Part shown: positions 1-5,285 of the stretch, one piece after another
Layout: each line of letters opens with the position of its first letter
Position numbering within the stretch: position 1 is the stretch's first letter
From: Candidatus Eiseniibacteriota bacterium
GTDB lineage: Bacteria > JAFGKV01
NCBI GenBank assembly: GCA_025453925.1
Contig: JALOPK010000252.1
Location: 1-5,285, forward strand
DNA length: 5,285 nucleotides
Direction of reading: 5' to 3'
Notes under the pieces: model-generated
Told to the model about the DNA's origin: nothing
Database searches by the model: none
The model's input: only the letters and a program-made list of their open reading frames with translations
Made by a program: the position numbers and the translations under genes

Positions 1-87
1 GATCTTCGGGAAAGCAGAGGCCACAGTAGCCAGAGCCAGCGTCACCGTAAGGACTCCCATCAGTGCGAGAACGCGTCTACTCCTCAT
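1..87 (-). CDS. N-terminus of a second exported protein (partial, cut by window edge)
   Basis: Twenty-nine codons are visible and the frame is open to the left edge. Translation from ATG 87 begins MRSRRVLALMG, continues with a hydrophobic stretch rich in Leu, Val, Thr and Ala, and ends VASA-FPKI. This is a classical signal peptide: basic start, hydrophobic core of about 17 residues, and an A-x-A cleavage site after residue 25. The SRRVLA stretch loosely resembles a twin-arginine motif but lacks a strong consensus, so Sec export is the default reading. The gene overlaps the end of the upstream gene by 11 bases in another frame and has its own strong ribosome binding site, so it is very probably the next gene of the same operon. 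Nothing of the mature protein can be identified. Confidence 0.75.
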   Translation of the reverse strand, partial: MRSRRVLALMGVLTVTLALATVASAFPKI

Positions 88-946
88 CGGCATACCTCCC
101 CAGCTCGCCGTCCTTCAAGAACCGGTCAACTTCATCTTCGGTGGGAACGGGGCCAAGGTACACCGAACCGGTTCCTCCGGTACTCACCACCTTTGATGAC
201 TTGAAAGCGGCGGATGAGCCCGCCGTCTCGGCGTACTCACCGTCATCCGAGCCGACGAGTTGTCCCAACGGCTTGGAGAGATCAGCGAGCTTGAGGCCGC
301 CTTCGTTCTCCACGACGAAAAGATCGTCTGAGAGAGAATCGCGGCGGAAGCGGAGCCGTTCGAGGATCACCAGGGGAGATGCCCCCCGCCCGGACACGAC
401 GGCCGAACTCCACGGGCTTTTCCCGCCATCGTGGCGGAAGGCGATACGCGCGGACGTGCTGCCGTCCCAAAGGGGGCGCGACAGGGTACGGACAACCAGC
501 GACTCGGGTGCGCCGTTTCCCATAAGGGTGAGGTACCCGCGGCCCAGCGCGCACTCAATCTGAAGCCTGGTCCCGCTCTGCGCGGATGGAACCCACAGCG
601 GCACAAGCAGATCCGTCAGGAGATAGAGCTCGGCCATGGTCAGTTTGGGCCCGGGAGCGAACTCGCTGGGGCGGCCACCCATGAACTTCACGACTCCCTT
701 GCCTGTCCACAACAGCTCCTCGGGACCGGGAGGGACTGTCCCCGTGGAACGTCGGTTGATCACGCGTACTTTGGCTTCTTTGGCGAGAACACGACCCTCC
801 CAGAGGGGCCGGGAACCCGTTCCGGGCAGGATTCTCAACTCACAGGTCGCTCCATCTCCTGCAAACAGCGCCGCCGTCGCGGTGGGCCAGGAACCGGCCC
901 ACGACGGGCTGACCAGAATGCATGCCAGCGTTGCGAGTACTCTCAT
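77..946 (-). CDS. Exported protein of unknown function
   Basis: A 289-residue protein that I do not recognise as any named family. The N-terminus MRVLATLACILVSPSWAGSW reads as a short Sec signal peptide with likely cleavage near residue 17 (SWA/GS). There is no convincing lipobox, since C9 sits in the hydrophobic core and not after a lipobox. No further membrane helix is evident, so the mature protein is probably periplasmic or secreted. The mature part has two cysteines (C35 in ATCELRI, C132 in QIECALG) that could form a disulfide. The heptad SRPLW(E/D)G occurs twice, at 45-51 and 156-162, each followed within about 15 residues by a strand-like stretch, which hints at an internal duplication. 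The C-terminus is acidic. The start ATG directly abuts the channel stop codon and has a strong ribosome binding site, so it is translated with the cyclase and channel. A role as periplasmic partner of the CHASE2 sensor is possible but rests only on location. Confidence 0.85.
   Translation of the reverse strand: MRVLATLACILVSPSWAGSWPTATAALFAGDGATCELRILPGTGSRPLWEGRVLAKEAKVRVINRRSTGTVPPGPEELLWTGKGVVKFMGGRPSEFAPGPKLTMAELYLLTDLLVPLWVPSAQSGTRLQIECALGRGYLTLMGNGAPESLVVRTLSRPLWDGSTSARIAFRHDGGKSPWSSAVVSGRGASPLVILERLRFRRDSLSDDLFVVENEGGLKLADLSKPLGQLVGSDDGEYAETAGSSAAFKSSKVVSTGGTGSVYLGPVPTEDEVDRFLKDGELGRYADEE
95..101 (-). promoter_or_regulatory. Ribosome binding site of the left-edge exported protein gene
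   Basis: GGGGAGG on the minus strand lies 7 bases before ATG 87. An in-frame ATG at 93 is only 1 base from the motif and so is too close, which makes 87 the better start. The site lies inside the end of the 289-residue protein gene. Confidence 0.75.
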
Positions 947-2560
947 CTATTCGTTCCCTCCTCCCGCGGTCGGACCTTTGCGTTTGACGTTACCACCGGG
1001 CCCTTTCCGCGTCAAGCCGCGCAGAATGCCGACGCCGAGGAGAGTCTCCATGGTCGAACGGACCCAGCTCTTGTCCCTCTCGGGAGGAAGATCCTCAGCC
1101 GACTTGCCCGATGCGGCGAGACGCTGGCGATTCATCTCCAACCTGGCGTGGACGATATCCGTCAAGGCCTCCAGGATAGCGCCATTGGCCTCGATGACGA
1201 GCTTGAATGCATCGCGGTTGACGACCGCGACGAGGCAATCCTCAGCGGCGCGGACTGTCGCGTTCCGGGACTCCCCGGTCAGCAGACTCATCTCACCGAA
1301 GTAGTCATGCCGTCCCAACACCGCGACCTCGATTTCGGATCCCCGCTCGTTGCGGATCAACACCCCGGCGCTGCCCTGCAGGATGATGTAGAAGCAGTCG
1401 CCTGACTCGCCCTGCGTCACGAGATTCTCTCCCGAGGCGTAGCTCTGCAGCCCAACCTCGGGCGCGAGACGCTCCATGTCGGGCTCGCTGAGGGGCTGCA
1501 GGATCGCCACCTTGCGCAAGGCCTCCAGGATATCCGCCCGCATCCGACGGCCCTTGTCATCCGATTCCTTCCTGGACAACGGCCTCAGCGTGACGTCGCG
1601 AATCGGGAACGGGATCTCGATGCCGTGCCTGCGGAAGTAGTACCACACCCGCGCTCTCACCGCGTCCTGGATAACGTCGCGCTTACGGAAGTCATCGATC
1701 CAGAACCGAAGCTCGTATCCCACGGAGAAATCATCGTAGGTCCTGAGGAGCACATCCGGAGCGGGGTCGGTGAGAACGCCGTGACGCGCCGCGTCCCTGG
1801 CGAGCTCCAGTAGTACCTGCTTCACCTTGTTCGGGGGCGCCGCGTAGCTCACGCCGACGGGAAAGCGCTCGCGGTGGAGTCGCGCCGGCTTTGAGTAGTT
1901 CACCAGTTGACCCTCGGCGAGCACGCTGTTGGGAACGACAACGTAGTCATTGTCGCGCGTCCAGATGCGCGTGGCTCTCCAGCTCATCTGGTCGACCATT
2001 CCCTCCTTGTCACCCACCTGAATCCAATCGCCCACTTCGAACGGTTTCTCCACGAAGATGGTGATACCCGCCAGAATGTTGTTGAGGGTGCTCTGGAGAG
2101 CGAGCCCGACCACTGCGGAAAGAATGGCGCTGGTAGTGAGAAGTGATCCGAGTCCGACGCCGAACCCCACCTTCAAGACCGCCATGACCACGATCACGAT
2201 GAGCAGCACGCGGATGATGTCCCGCAGGATCATCGGGAAACTCTGGCGCCGGGACGCCGGCACCATCCAGGCGAAGAGAAATGGCTCGAGAGTCTGCACG
2301 AGCAGCACGAGAACCCACAGCGCCAGAATGCCATTCACCGCGCGCAGGGTGCCGGGTTCCGTCAACGGGTGGACGGGGCCGAGGAGTCGTGGGTCGGCCA
2401 GCACCCCCAGCACCAGTCGGACAAGGGTGGTGAGCACGACCAGGGAGGACAGGTTCTTCCCCTTCTGCACCCGCAGGCCGCCGTAGATGATCGCCCGGAC
2501 AACGAGCATACCGACCACTATGCCCATGGATATGACGAGGGATGTACCCCACTCAGGCAT
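947..2560 (-). CDS. MscS-family channel with C-terminal cyclic-nucleotide-binding domain (bCNG type)
   Basis: A 537-residue inner-membrane channel of the small-conductance mechanosensitive (MscS) superfamily, fused to a cytoplasmic cyclic-nucleotide-binding domain. This architecture is known as bCNG. Four membrane helices are predicted at about 5-26, 37-55, 77-98 and 110-134. The pore-lining helix and start of the beta domain follow at about 137-184 and match the family well (VVGLALQSTLNNILAGITIFVEKPFEVGDWI is spread over 150-180). The MscS beta and alpha/beta domains run to about 321. The nucleotide-binding domain spans about 347-471, with a phosphate-binding cassette at 421-438 (FGEMSLL, then ESRNATVRA). 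E423 and R432, which contact the cyclic phosphate in this fold, are present. A basic Gly-rich tail follows (about 480-537). The channel probably gates or is modulated by the cAMP made by the overlapping upstream cyclase (inference). Whether it also responds to membrane tension cannot be told; some bCNG proteins are reported to respond poorly. The start is chosen by its ribosome binding site. The stop TAG directly abuts the next ATG. Confidence 0.94.
   Translation of the reverse strand: MPEWGTSLVISMGIVVGMLVVRAIIYGGLRVQKGKNLSSLVVLTTLVRLVLGVLADPRLLGPVHPLTEPGTLRAVNGILALWVLVLLVQTLEPFLFAWMVPASRRQSFPMILRDIIRVLLIVIVVMAVLKVGFGVGLGSLLTTSAILSAVVGLALQSTLNNILAGITIFVEKPFEVGDWIQVGDKEGMVDQMSWRATRIWTRDNDYVVVPNSVLAEGQLVNYSKPARLHRERFPVGVSYAAPPNKVKQVLLELARDAARHGVLTDPAPDVLLRTYDDFSVGYELRFWIDDFRKRDVIQDAVRARVWYYFRRHGIEIPFPIRDVTLRPLSRKESDDKGRRMRADILEALRKVAILQPLSEPDMERLAPEVGLQSYASGENLVTQGESGDCFYIILQGSAGVLIRNERGSEIEVAVLGRHDYFGEMSLLTGESRNATVRAAEDCLVAVVNRDAFKLVIEANGAILEALTDIVHARLEMNRQRLAASGKSAEDLPPERDKSWVRSTMETLLGVGILRGLTRKGPGGNVKRKGPTAGGGNE
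956..965 (-). promoter_or_regulatory. Ribosome binding site of the 289-residue exported protein gene
   Basis: GGGAGGAGGG on the minus strand lies 9 bases before ATG 946, within the last codons of the channel gene. It supports the start that yields a clean signal peptide. Confidence 0.8.
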
Positions 2561-4523
2561 CGCCAACCTCCCCATATGCGGGCTCGAACAGCTCCACCTC
2601 CTGTTGCCGACCACGAATCTTGCTAGATCCATGAGGCGAAAAACGGATGTTGGTCCGAACGCTCTCGAGCGTGGTCTTCGTGACGAGTATGCTGGTGTTG
2701 AGCTCCTTGTTCAGCGCTTGAACCCTGCTGGCGGTGTTTACCGTATCGCCGATGGCGGTATACTCCATGCGCTCCTTGCTGCCGATGCTCCCGACCACTG
2801 CAGGCCCCGTGTTGATCCCAACGCCAAGACGCAGGGCGGGCCATCCCCGTTCAGTCCAGCGCGCATTCAGCTCGTTGAGTCTCTCGATCATTGCCAACCC
2901 CGTCTGCACGGCGCGGTCGGCGTGGTCGGGAACGTGGCCCGGAGCTCCGTAGAAGACCATCATCCCGTCACCGAGGAACTTGTCCAGCGTCCCCCCGTGG
3001 GCAAAAACCTCACCGACCATGACGCTGAGAAACTCGTCGAGGATGGCGACGACCTCCTCCGGCGTCTTGGTTTCGGAGAGTGTCGTGAAGCCTCGGATGT
3101 CGCAGAAAAGGACCGTGATTTCACGTTGCTCTCCCTTGAGCCTGACTTCACTTGGATCACGGAGCAGTTCCTCCACGACCTGCCGGCTCACGTAGCGGGA
3201 GAAGGTTCGACGGTATCGCCGCTTCTCCCGGCCTTCCGAGAGATACAGTGCGACGACGTGCCCGGCGATTCCCAACGCCAGCGCCAGAAGCGGAAGCGAC
3301 AAGCCCATCCACCACCCCTGATCCAGCATCGCCACGCACACCGCCGCGTAGACGCCGCCAAGCAGCGCCGATGACCCCAAACCAATCGGGGTGGACCAAC
3401 GCCGCAACGCGACGCCGGCGAAAACCGCCAACGCCCCGGCAACGAGCACGGCGGCGCCGGGCCATGCAATCCGGACAAAAGCGCCGGCGAGTATGTTCTC
3501 CAGCGCGGTGGCCTGGATCTCGACGCCCGGCACGCTGGTCCCCATGGGACAGGACACGAGATCGAAGAGCCCTGAGGCAGTCAGCGCGATGATCACCATG
3601 CGGCCCTCAAATACCTCCGGAGTCACCGGCGGCAGTGTGCCGTTCCGCCAGTGGGGCTGCGTGCCCTCTTCCTCCGCCAACGCGGCATGAAGTACCGACG
3701 AGAATGGTACCGGAGAGTGCGGCGTGGAGAACCGGAGCAACGCCTGCGCTCGAGCGTCGACGGGAATGCGAGGCCCTTGGTCCCCCAGCGCGACTTCGCC
3801 GTCGTCGCACCGCAGATCGGAGGAAGACGCCCCCTGCGTCCAGAGATACATCGCCACACTCAGTGCAGGCACCGACATGCCCTCACCGGAGAGCACGATG
3901 GGCACCCGCCGCGCGACGCCGTCCATGTCGCGTGGAACGTTGACATGTCCCAGGCAGTCGCACGCCTCGAGCAAGGCAGGAAAGGGAGTGATGAGTCGCT
4001 CATGAGGTTCCTGCTGCACTCCGCAAGGTACGCCGAATCTCTCCGAGACAACGGCGCGGATACTGTCGGGCGTGGCGAATCCGGTCCGGCCCAAAGCAGC
4101 CACCGAGTGGCAGTTGTTTCCGGCCAGCATGACGGCGCGGACCAGTCTGCGATCGTCTTCCGGGCTCGTCGCGCTCTCCACTGGGAAGTACAGGTCAAAT
4201 CCCACAACCTGTGCTCCCGCCCTCACCAGATAGTCGATCACGGGAGGATAGACGGATCTCGGCCACGGCCACTTGCCGAACTTGAAGGAATCAGCCCCGT
4301 ACGAGATGTCATCAACGGCGACGATCACGACCCTCGCCGAGTCGGGAACCGCCAGCGGCACCATGCGCTGTGCGGTGTCCATGAGCATGAGTTCCACACG
4401 CTGCATCGGTCGGGTGAGGGAGAGGAGTGCGGCCGCCATCACCGCAACGAGCGACACGGCCGCCAGTTCGACCCGTGGAGCCTTCAGGCGCCGTGCGGGA
4501 CGATTCTGCTGTCCCTTCTCCAT
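2553..4523 (-). CDS. CHASE2-domain membrane adenylate cyclase (class III)
   Basis: A 656-residue sensor cyclase expected to convert ATP to cAMP in the cytoplasm in response to an extracytoplasmic signal. Order of parts: short basic N-terminus; membrane helix about 18-37; CHASE2 sensor domain about 38-352, with typical pieces VVIVAVDD, GKWPWPRS, GAQVVGFDLYFP and GHVNVPRDMDGVARRVPIV; three membrane helices about 354-373, 378-400 and 405-428; linker RRTFSRYVSRQVVEELL; class III catalytic domain about 465-650. The catalytic residues look complete: metal-binding D475 (FCDIRGFT) and D519 (KFLGDGMMVFYG), purine-selecting K515 and T589 (EYTAIGDTVN), and transition-state N596 and R600. A Lys/Thr pair is typical of class IIIb adenylate, not guanylate, cyclases. 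The ligand of CHASE2 is unknown. The start is set by a strong ribosome binding site. The gene overlaps nadB by 40 bases and the downstream channel gene by 8 (ATGCCTGA), which points to co-expression with the channel. The sensor domain carries six cysteines including a CxC. Confidence 0.95.
   Translation of the reverse strand: MEKGQQNRPARRLKAPRVELAAVSLVAVMAAALLSLTRPMQRVELMLMDTAQRMVPLAVPDSARVVIVAVDDISYGADSFKFGKWPWPRSVYPPVIDYLVRAGAQVVGFDLYFPVESATSPEDDRRLVRAVMLAGNNCHSVAALGRTGFATPDSIRAVVSERFGVPCGVQQEPHERLITPFPALLEACDCLGHVNVPRDMDGVARRVPIVLSGEGMSVPALSVAMYLWTQGASSSDLRCDDGEVALGDQGPRIPVDARAQALLRFSTPHSPVPFSSVLHAALAEEEGTQPHWRNGTLPPVTPEVFEGRMVIIALTASGLFDLVSCPMGTSVPGVEIQATALENILAGAFVRIAWPGAAVLVAGALAVFAGVALRRWSTPIGLGSSALLGGVYAAVCVAMLDQGWWMGLSLPLLALALGIAGHVVALYLSEGREKRRYRRTFSRYVSRQVVEELLRDPSEVRLKGEQREITVLFCDIRGFTTLSETKTPEEVVAILDEFLSVMVGEVFAHGGTLDKFLGDGMMVFYGAPGHVPDHADRAVQTGLAMIERLNELNARWTERGWPALRLGVGINTGPAVVGSIGSKERMEYTAIGDTVNTASRVQALNKELNTSILVTKTTLESVRTNIRFSPHGSSKIRGRQQEVELFEPAYGEVGDA
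2567..2573 (-). promoter_or_regulatory. Ribosome binding site of the MscS-CNBD channel gene
   Basis: GGGGAGG on the minus strand lies 6 bases before ATG 2560, inside the end of the cyclase gene. It selects this ATG over the in-frame ATGs at 2632 and 2575, which have no comparable site and would add a poor, non-membrane N-terminal extension. Confidence 0.85.
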
Positions 4524-5285
4524 GTCGCTCCTCCCCGGTGAGGGTGATCCGTGTTGAAGTGGAGGCCGCGGGACTCCTTGCGCCAGGCCGCGCTCTCTGC
4601 GATCAGCCTGCCCGTCTGCAGGATGTTTCTGAGCTCCATGACCTCCCGGGCGGGAGTCTGCGACGCCAGCTCCCTGACCGGATGGGCAAGACGGTCGAGG
4701 AGAGTGATTGCATCGGTGATGCCGCGATCGGACCGCACGATGCCCACGTTGCGCCACATGCACTCGCGTGCCTCGACTCGAAGGTCCTCTGCCGCGCGCA
4801 CCGTGTCAGGTGCCCGGGCGTACGACGCGACCGTCTCGGGAGACGGAAGCCGGCGGGACGGACAAACCTCGCACATCGCCGAGACGGAGGCGGCAACCCT
4901 GGTGGCGAACACGATGGCCTCGAGCAGTGAGTTGCTTGCCAGCCGGTTGGCCCCGTGGAGCCCCGTGCAGGCAACCTCACCGCAGGCGAACAGCCCCGCG
5001 ACATCGGTCGCTCCCATCCCGTCGGTGGTCAACCCGCCGCAGAAGTAGTGGGCAGCGGGAACGACCGGGATCGGATCCCGGGTGAAGTCGACACCCGCGT
5101 CGAGGCATTTCCGGTAGATGCCCGGAAATCGATTTCGCGCGAAATCGTGATCAAGAACTGTCACATCGAGGTATACGCACGGCAAACCCCGCGCCTTCAT
5201 CTCCTGGTCGATGGCTCTGGCGACGATGTCCCGTGGCGCGAGTTCGCTGCGGGAATCATACCGATGCATGAACAAGGTGCCGTCG
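4484..5285 (-). CDS. nadB: L-aspartate oxidase NadB, C-terminal half (5' end outside window)
   Basis: FAD-dependent L-aspartate oxidase, a cytoplasmic enzyme that oxidises L-aspartate to iminoaspartate, the first step of de novo NAD synthesis; NadA then makes quinolinate. The reading frame is open to the right edge, with residues D-G-T before a TTG that is not the true start. About 267 codons are visible, roughly half the usual length of about 530 residues. Family motifs seen are ELAPRDIVARAI, PAAHYFCGG and GLHGANRLASNSLLEA. From knowledge of the E. coli enzyme, the Arg of LAPRD (codon 5231-5233), the His of AAHY (5048-5050) and the Arg of GANRLAS (4943-4945) match active-site residues, so the enzyme is probably active. 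The C-terminal helical region (MWRNVGIVRSD ... ESRGLHFNTDHP) is typical of the family. The last 40 bases overlap the cyclase start, so the two genes are probably co-transcribed. Succinate dehydrogenase/fumarate reductase flavoproteins are relatives, but the GANRLASNS and ESRGLH motifs favour NadB. Confidence 0.95.
   Translation of the reverse strand, partial: DGTLFMHRYDSRSELAPRDIVARAIDQEMKARGLPCVYLDVTVLDHDFARNRFPGIYRKCLDAGVDFTRDPIPVVPAAHYFCGGLTTDGMGATDVAGLFACGEVACTGLHGANRLASNSLLEAIVFATRVAASVSAMCEVCPSRRLPSPETVASYARAPDTVRAAEDLRVEARECMWRNVGIVRSDRGITDAITLLDRLAHPVRELASQTPAREVMELRNILQTGRLIAESAAWRKESRGLHFNTDHPHRGGATWRRDSRIVPHGA
4528..4536 (-). promoter_or_regulatory. Ribosome binding site of the CHASE2 cyclase gene
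   Basis: Reading the minus strand, GGGGAGGAG lies just before ATG 4523, with about 6 bases between GGAGG and the ATG. This site decides the start: the same frame is open upstream to 4763, but those 80 codons are Arg/Pro/His-rich and lie inside nadB, so they are out-of-frame shadow. The site lies within the nadB coding sequence, which suggests translational coupling. Confidence 0.85.
5125..5147. repeat. Nested palindromes inside nadB
   Basis: Two overlapping perfect palindromes are present: GAAATCGATTTC at 5125-5136, and an 18-base one, CGATTTCGCGCGAAATCG, at 5130-5147. The hexamer GAAATC therefore appears three times in alternating orientation. The stretch encodes part of HDFARNRFPGIY in NadB, a region conserved in the family, so it may be only a by-product of coding. 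It is AT-richer than its surroundings. Confidence 0.6.

Follow-up and report, generated by a model that had tools for sequence, protein, structure and literature searches.

Can a bacterium turn a cue met at its envelope directly into flow through a membrane channel by way of cyclic AMP (cAMP), a messenger that teaching on bacteria usually directs to transcription factors? The question is raised by two overlapping genes on the minus strand of a 5,285-base stretch of DNA (hereafter the window), which is an entire contig from G000, a metagenome-assembled genome estimated as 82% complete. One of them (2553..4523) encodes a 656-amino-acid class III adenylate cyclase with a CHASE2 domain, and the other (947..2560) a 537-amino-acid channel of the MscS superfamily with a C-terminal cyclic-nucleotide-binding domain (CNBD), that is, of the bCNG type. 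In a scan for loci of such channels (MscS-CNBD in what follows), the nearest named relatives of the window genome were Candidatus Fermentibacteria. We infer, with a probability of roughly 0.6, that the operon couples an envelope-sensing source of cAMP to a bCNG-type receptor channel through their common ligand. These cells would thus probably turn an envelope cue directly into channel flow, because the cyclase adjoins a gene for a putative cAMP-binding channel and the pairing recurs in unrelated bacteria. Channels of the bCNG type are described as gated by cAMP, but we know of no work that assigns them a natural source of it or a role, and the recurrent cyclase-channel operon would provide a defined source-receptor pair.

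A preliminary description of the locus, made from the window alone, had counted an adjacency confined to this genome among the findings that would overturn its proposal; the adjacency in fact extends across phyla. For 15 of 141 non-redundant MscS-CNBD genes, a class III cyclase gene lies on the same strand at a distance of no more than 1.2 kb, in both gene orders; our own estimate from cyclase density (36 in ~33 Mb across 13 genomes) puts the number of such pairs expected by chance at about 0.2. The 15 pairs require eight changes, one per cluster, on a quick tree (FastTree) in which related loci are non-independent. A distance control, independent of genome-wide cyclase density, was applied to the best 80 MscS-CNBD loci of GTDB 220 obtained by scanning the collection: eight cyclases, six of them on the strand of the channel gene and two on the opposite one, lay within 1.2 kb (175 kb read), versus one at 1.2–5 kb (454 kb read). 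In six of these best 80 loci, a class III cyclase directly adjoins the channel gene on the same strand (two Fermentibacteria, three Deltaproteobacteria and one Planctomycetota, the latter with reversed order); CHASE2 was seen in five of the six, the cyclase gene of the other (L081; L numbers denote loci and G numbers genomes) being truncated by the end of its stretch before CHASE2. Of 386 surveyed genomes, most of them from different families, 43 proved to have MscS-CNBD genes, and three outside the window's family have the pair: G418 (one contig, 96% complete), G597 and G682, the last two of which have a single hydrolase gene in between. Further pairs came from searches of a class of Deltaproteobacteria and of Planctomycetota, two groups searched because the pair was already known there; L182 and L185 show the C-terminal end of the cyclase only. 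The window's own family, the starting point of the survey, has the pair in three of three genomes, with the nadB-cyclase-channel order maintained and the same overlap of ~8 bases in G001 and G002. That the pairing reflects a functional linkage is supported by these comparisons. Chance adjacency is rejected on the distance control together with the tree count.

The positions of both open reading frames, the completeness of the cyclase and the intact look of the channel's phosphate-binding cassette had all been read correctly in the preliminary description. The cyclase (73% identical in same-genus G001, 56% in G002) matches Pfam CHASE2 at 158.5 bits (PF05226, 3.1e-46; cut-off 26.3) and Guanylate_cyc at 91.4 bits (PF00211; cut-off 21.9). 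It has the layout of a CHASE2 receptor, since hydropathy places a single N-terminal transmembrane segment (amino acids 15–40) before the extracytoplasmic sensor domain (amino acids 30–370; 3414..4436) and further transmembrane segments within amino acids 344–430 (3234..3494) between CHASE2 and the catalytic output domain (amino acids 466–642; 2598..3128). In alignment with solved cyclases, the catalytic domain holds all six residues of a class III adenylate cyclase, namely the two metal-binding aspartates D475 and D519, the adenine-recognizing pair K515/T589 and the transition-state residues N596 and R600. These six are invariant in eight of eight aligned paired cyclases, of which the seven others share 29–73% identity with that of the window, and the DKDTNR set is found in every paired cyclase with readable positions, with the exception of the cyanobacterium-like G682. 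The product of the window cyclase should be cAMP, judging from these residues, because K515/T589 match the Lys/Thr of the adenylate cyclase CyaC and differ from the Glu/Gly of the guanylate cyclase Cya2 at the same columns.

The channel unites in one open reading frame the pore and beta domain of MscS with a C-terminal CNBD (Pfam MS_channel_2nd 76.1 bits, MS_channel_3rd 56.7 bits, cNMP_binding 84 bits). Its longest reading frame would begin at 2632; the ATG at 2560, which makes the start of the channel gene overlap the end of the cyclase gene by eight bases (2553..2560), is the preferred start, because both relatives align from that methionine and the G002 reading frame has it as its first start, with the G001 and G002 overlaps, of ~8 bases, at the same place. 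The membrane part (2048..2554) comprises five helices predicted from hydropathy and the AlphaFold2 model, the last of them (amino acids 137–171) where MscS has its pore helix, followed by the MscS beta and C-terminal cage domains (amino acids 158–316; 1613..2089; PF00924 and PF21082). The model as a whole has a confidence (predicted local distance difference test, pLDDT) of 80, with MscS, MscK and YnaI as best PDB matches. The CNBD (amino acids 372–458; 1187..1447; PF00027), among whose PDB sequence matches are those of PKA, PKG and CRP, carries an intact cassette, FGEMSLLTGESRNATV, delimited as FGEMSLLTGESRNA at amino acids 421–434 (1259..1300), of which all 30 aligned MscS-CNBD proteins keep the phosphate-binding R432 and at least 90% the ribose-binding E423. 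The ratio of nonsynonymous to synonymous substitution rates with respect to G001 is ~0.12 in the cyclase gene, ~0.09 in the channel gene and ~0.13 when the CNBD is taken by itself, and both genes are therefore under purifying selection.

The window genome contains a second MscS-CNBD gene (G000:C257:4447-5964; L022:4432-5967), 38–39% identical, on a 9.5 kb contig with no cyclase in its vicinity, and repeated sequence occurs at its 3' end and beyond it (L022:5824-6492). An MscS-CNBD relative in G001 (G001:C188:8711-9645) lies in two abutting pieces (L109 and L110), possibly a frameshift, and that of G418 (L245:5737-7232) is split by a frameshift within the CNBD, either a true inactivation or an assembly error.

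The preliminary description treated the two genes as a unit and overlooked two further overlapping genes, of which one encodes a secreted protein and the other is placed as an M48 protease. The cyclase-channel pair is in fact the middle of a longer operon: all five genes of the window are on the minus strand, each touching or overlapping the next, and in reading order they are the end of nadB (L-aspartate oxidase, C-terminal part; 4484..5284, 40-base overlap with the cyclase start), the cyclase, the channel, a 289-amino-acid putatively secreted protein of unknown fold (77..946), kept in G001 and G002, and the first 31 codons of a fourth gene (1..93) that begins with the signal peptide MPMRSRRVLALMGVLTVTLALATVASAFPKI. 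By synteny with G001, where it is complete (L020:10546-11382), this fourth gene is assigned to the M48 metalloproteases. Pfam, NCBIfam and PADLOC searches gave no match for the 289-amino-acid protein. Its C-terminal tail (DEVDRFLKDGELGRYADEE) resembles the tails of bacterial-SH3 proteins encoded beside other CHASE2 cyclases (hhalign E 8e-4, over only 20 columns and with a probability of 25%), a weak hint that it may fill the slot of SH3 proteins.

On these grounds, we envisage a mechanism in which CHASE2, outside the inner membrane, would sense the state of the envelope, which the secreted 289-amino-acid protein and the M48 protease perhaps read or set, and would control the class III catalytic domain inside the cell. 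The cAMP produced would bind the cytoplasmic CNBD of the MscS-type channel and shift its gating or tension threshold, so that the flux of ions or solutes could change with no delay for transcription. The signal is probably degraded, in some relatives, by a metallo-beta-lactamase hydrolase of the same cluster. The sequences show the gene structure, the intact catalytic and ligand-binding residues and the recurrent linkage; that the cyclase makes cAMP, that the CNBD binds it and that the channel is gated by it are steps that we infer, as are the cue and the direction of its effect. For the cue, osmotic or envelope stress is our preferred guess, because the M48 proteins resemble the BepA and LoiP models, with scores under the cut-offs, and because the receptor adenylyl cyclases CyaA and CyaB of Myxococcus xanthus are described as osmosensing (cited in PMC7643160).

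Such a hydrolase accompanies several of the pairs. The order is SH3 protein, M48 protease, MscS-CNBD, CHASE2 cyclase and metallo-beta-lactamase hydrolase in G418, and SH3, M48, CHASE2 cyclase, hydrolase and MscS-CNBD in G597. These five-gene clusters (L245:4373-10280 and L246:123-6294), with their two orders, are candidates for a complete cAMP module. The G682 hydrolase, encoded between cyclase and channel, belongs to the Apyc1 family (81 bits, cut-off 50); those of G418, G597 and L065 are more distant (PF12706; 43–48 bits versus a phosphodiesterase model with a cut-off of 400). In that cyanobacterium-like genome, a CHASE2 guanylate-type cyclase, the Apyc1-family hydrolase and an MscS-CNBD are consecutive (L247:2529-7154), possibly a cGMP (cyclic GMP) version.

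CHASE2 cyclases were also considered in their own right, at 60 loci that lie beyond the window's family and had no part in building the query. The general pattern thus appears to be a CHASE2 cyclase with an adjoining CNBD output, the channel being one version, because other CNBD proteins (CRP-type regulators, single or tandem CNBD) adjoin nine of the 60 (L300, L302, L322, L289, L337, L314, L323, L324 and L326), suggestive of swappable outputs. A possible rule is that CHASE2 cyclases bring their own CNBD output, be it a transcription factor, a tandem CNBD protein or a channel. FecR proteins adjoin eight of the 60 loci, and SH3 plus M48 four, the same numbers as in a count over 64 loci. In a recurrent trio (L279, L286, L292, L336 and L071), with the channel not adjacent, the CHASE2 cyclase precedes a bacterial-SH3 or SH3-slot protein, and an M48 protease comes next; the SH3 proteins have in common the motif DEVALAGKGFNPxVExEY and an FxxxGKLGE-like tail. 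In one class of Deltaproteobacteria (L075, L094, L081, L143 and L145–L149), the operon runs on to a transglutaminase-core protein; its first gene encodes a FecR-TPR protein in L075 and L094. Taken at its widest, and tentatively enough that we would put it somewhat below an even chance, the system could be a portable transcription-free circuit in which a CHASE2 sensor/adenylate cyclase gates an MscS-type channel through cAMP. In several lineages a metallo-beta-lactamase phosphodiesterase would switch it off, a secreted SH3-like protein and an M48 protease would form its sensing arm, and in one class of Planctomycetota it would be the genome's only cAMP pathway.

How exclusive the circuit is differs from genome to genome. 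Searches for class III cyclases and for CNBD proteins detected just one of each in the Planctomycetota G063 and G125, adjoining one another, so that these genomes offer the pair with no detected rival, whether a second cyclase of that class or another CNBD receptor. There the channel would be the sole CNBD receptor for the product of the cyclase, if the assemblies are near complete. In the sister genome G126 neither a cyclase nor a CNBD protein was detected, and G127 has no detected cyclase and two CNBD proteins.

Several observations weigh against coupling through the ligand as we favour it. The window genome has at least four class III cyclases and at least five CNBD proteins, so it is not a case of one source and one receptor, and its cAMP could act elsewhere. 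The cyclase as dedicated, self-contained ligand source, as first proposed, therefore holds in part: functional linkage and cAMP-type residues speak for it, but not exclusivity in this genome, where at least five CNBD proteins also leave the phrase 'without a transcription factor' unestablished. About 90% of MscS-CNBD genes lack a neighbouring cyclase, which means that the channel need not have a linked one; the distant relatives L022–L026, with no cyclase among their neighbours, are typical in this respect of most, not all, MscS-CNBD genes in the wider survey. None of the loci read shows a cyclase-channel fusion. The 289-amino-acid protein yields a poor predicted model (pLDDT 40). Lastly, at one of the eight places on the tree, the G682 pair has a guanylate-type cyclase, and the ligand may differ there.

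An alternative is a shared stress operon, in which the two genes are co-transcribed for osmotic or envelope stress, cAMP acts on CRP-type regulators and the CNBD of the channel is a structural or weak ligand domain. We consider this explanation unlikely, at something over one chance in five the most durable of the alternatives. The clustering of CHASE2 cyclases with envelope genes (FecR; SH3 and M48), the additional CNBD proteins in the window genome and in the Deltaproteobacteria, and the unlinked state of most MscS-CNBD genes are all in its favour. Nevertheless, it sits poorly with the conserved cassette residues and with G063 and G125, where no other CNBD receptor was detected. Eleven loci of MscS channels lacking a CNBD, a small sample, had no adjoining cyclase, and CHASE2 cyclases repeatedly adjoin CNBD proteins of varied output, as expected if the CNBD matters. 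We keep to coupling through cAMP as the preferred interpretation.

Inherited gene order, with the pair simply carried along in an lpx-nadB operon, is very improbable: the order from lpxA to the gene of the 289-amino-acid protein is common to G001 and G002, but the pair recurs in unrelated genomes with other neighbours and in reversed order, and the tree does not suggest recent transfer of one cassette. Pure family synteny is thus rejected on recurrence in other phyla beside other genes. An anti-phage system of the Pycsar kind, in which the membrane CNBD effector would depolarize the infected cell, has the same logic of cyclase plus CNBD effector, and the PADLOC models PycC and PycTIR recognize the cyclase at 93 bits and the CNBD at 62 bits. 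These matches, however, span the shared cyclase and CNBD folds only, the 289-amino-acid and M48 proteins have none, and the cyclase has a CHASE2 sensor and the adenine pair K515/T589 in place of pyrimidine cyclase residues, within an lpx-nadB run conserved across the family and with no defence genes seen nearby. Pycsar identity, which we consider scarcely credible, is rejected on substrate residues, and the conserved genomic context argues against it as well. A circuit using cGMP or another cyclic nucleotide is about as implausible, as the Glu/Gly of the G682 pair is offset by Lys/Thr in all other paired cyclases readable at both positions, that of the window included, for which cGMP is disfavoured.

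Both protein families are known, and the linked module is without description in the open-licence literature searched, where we found neither CHASE2 paired with a mechanosensitive channel nor MscS paired with an adenylate cyclase, nor any cyclase linked to the bCNG family. Channels of that family were reportedly shown by Caldwell in 2010 to be gated by cyclic nucleotide, and Ss-bCNGa is said to be one, studied by Malcolm et al. in 2012. The window channel shares with them the MscS pore and cage, the C-terminal CNBD and the intact cassette, and differs in its five predicted membrane helices and in the overlap of its gene with that of a cyclase. For M. xanthus CyaA and CyaB, which work alike as membrane adenylyl cyclases tied to osmotic cues, we know of no channel partner. 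Cya2 of Synechocystis is a CHASE2-regulated guanylate cyclase (PMC5995499). It has the same CHASE2 outside, transmembrane segments and class III catalytic domain, such cyclases being the closest solved sequence relatives; unlike the guanylate Glu/Gly of Cya2, the window cyclase has adenylate Lys/Thr together with an operonic channel partner. Pycsar systems, whose signals are cyclic CMP (cCMP) and cyclic UMP (cUMP) (PMC9117128), likewise place a cyclase and a CNBD-bearing effector within one locus, whereas the window locus has adenine residues, a CHASE2 sensor, an MscS channel and a housekeeping context. The Apyc1 family consists of class II (metallo-beta-lactamase) phosphodiesterases that cut cyclic mononucleotides, relatives such as YhfI preferring cAMP and cGMP (PMC9117128); the hydrolase of G682 exceeds the Apyc1 cut-off, and those of G418, G597 and L065 are its more distant relatives.

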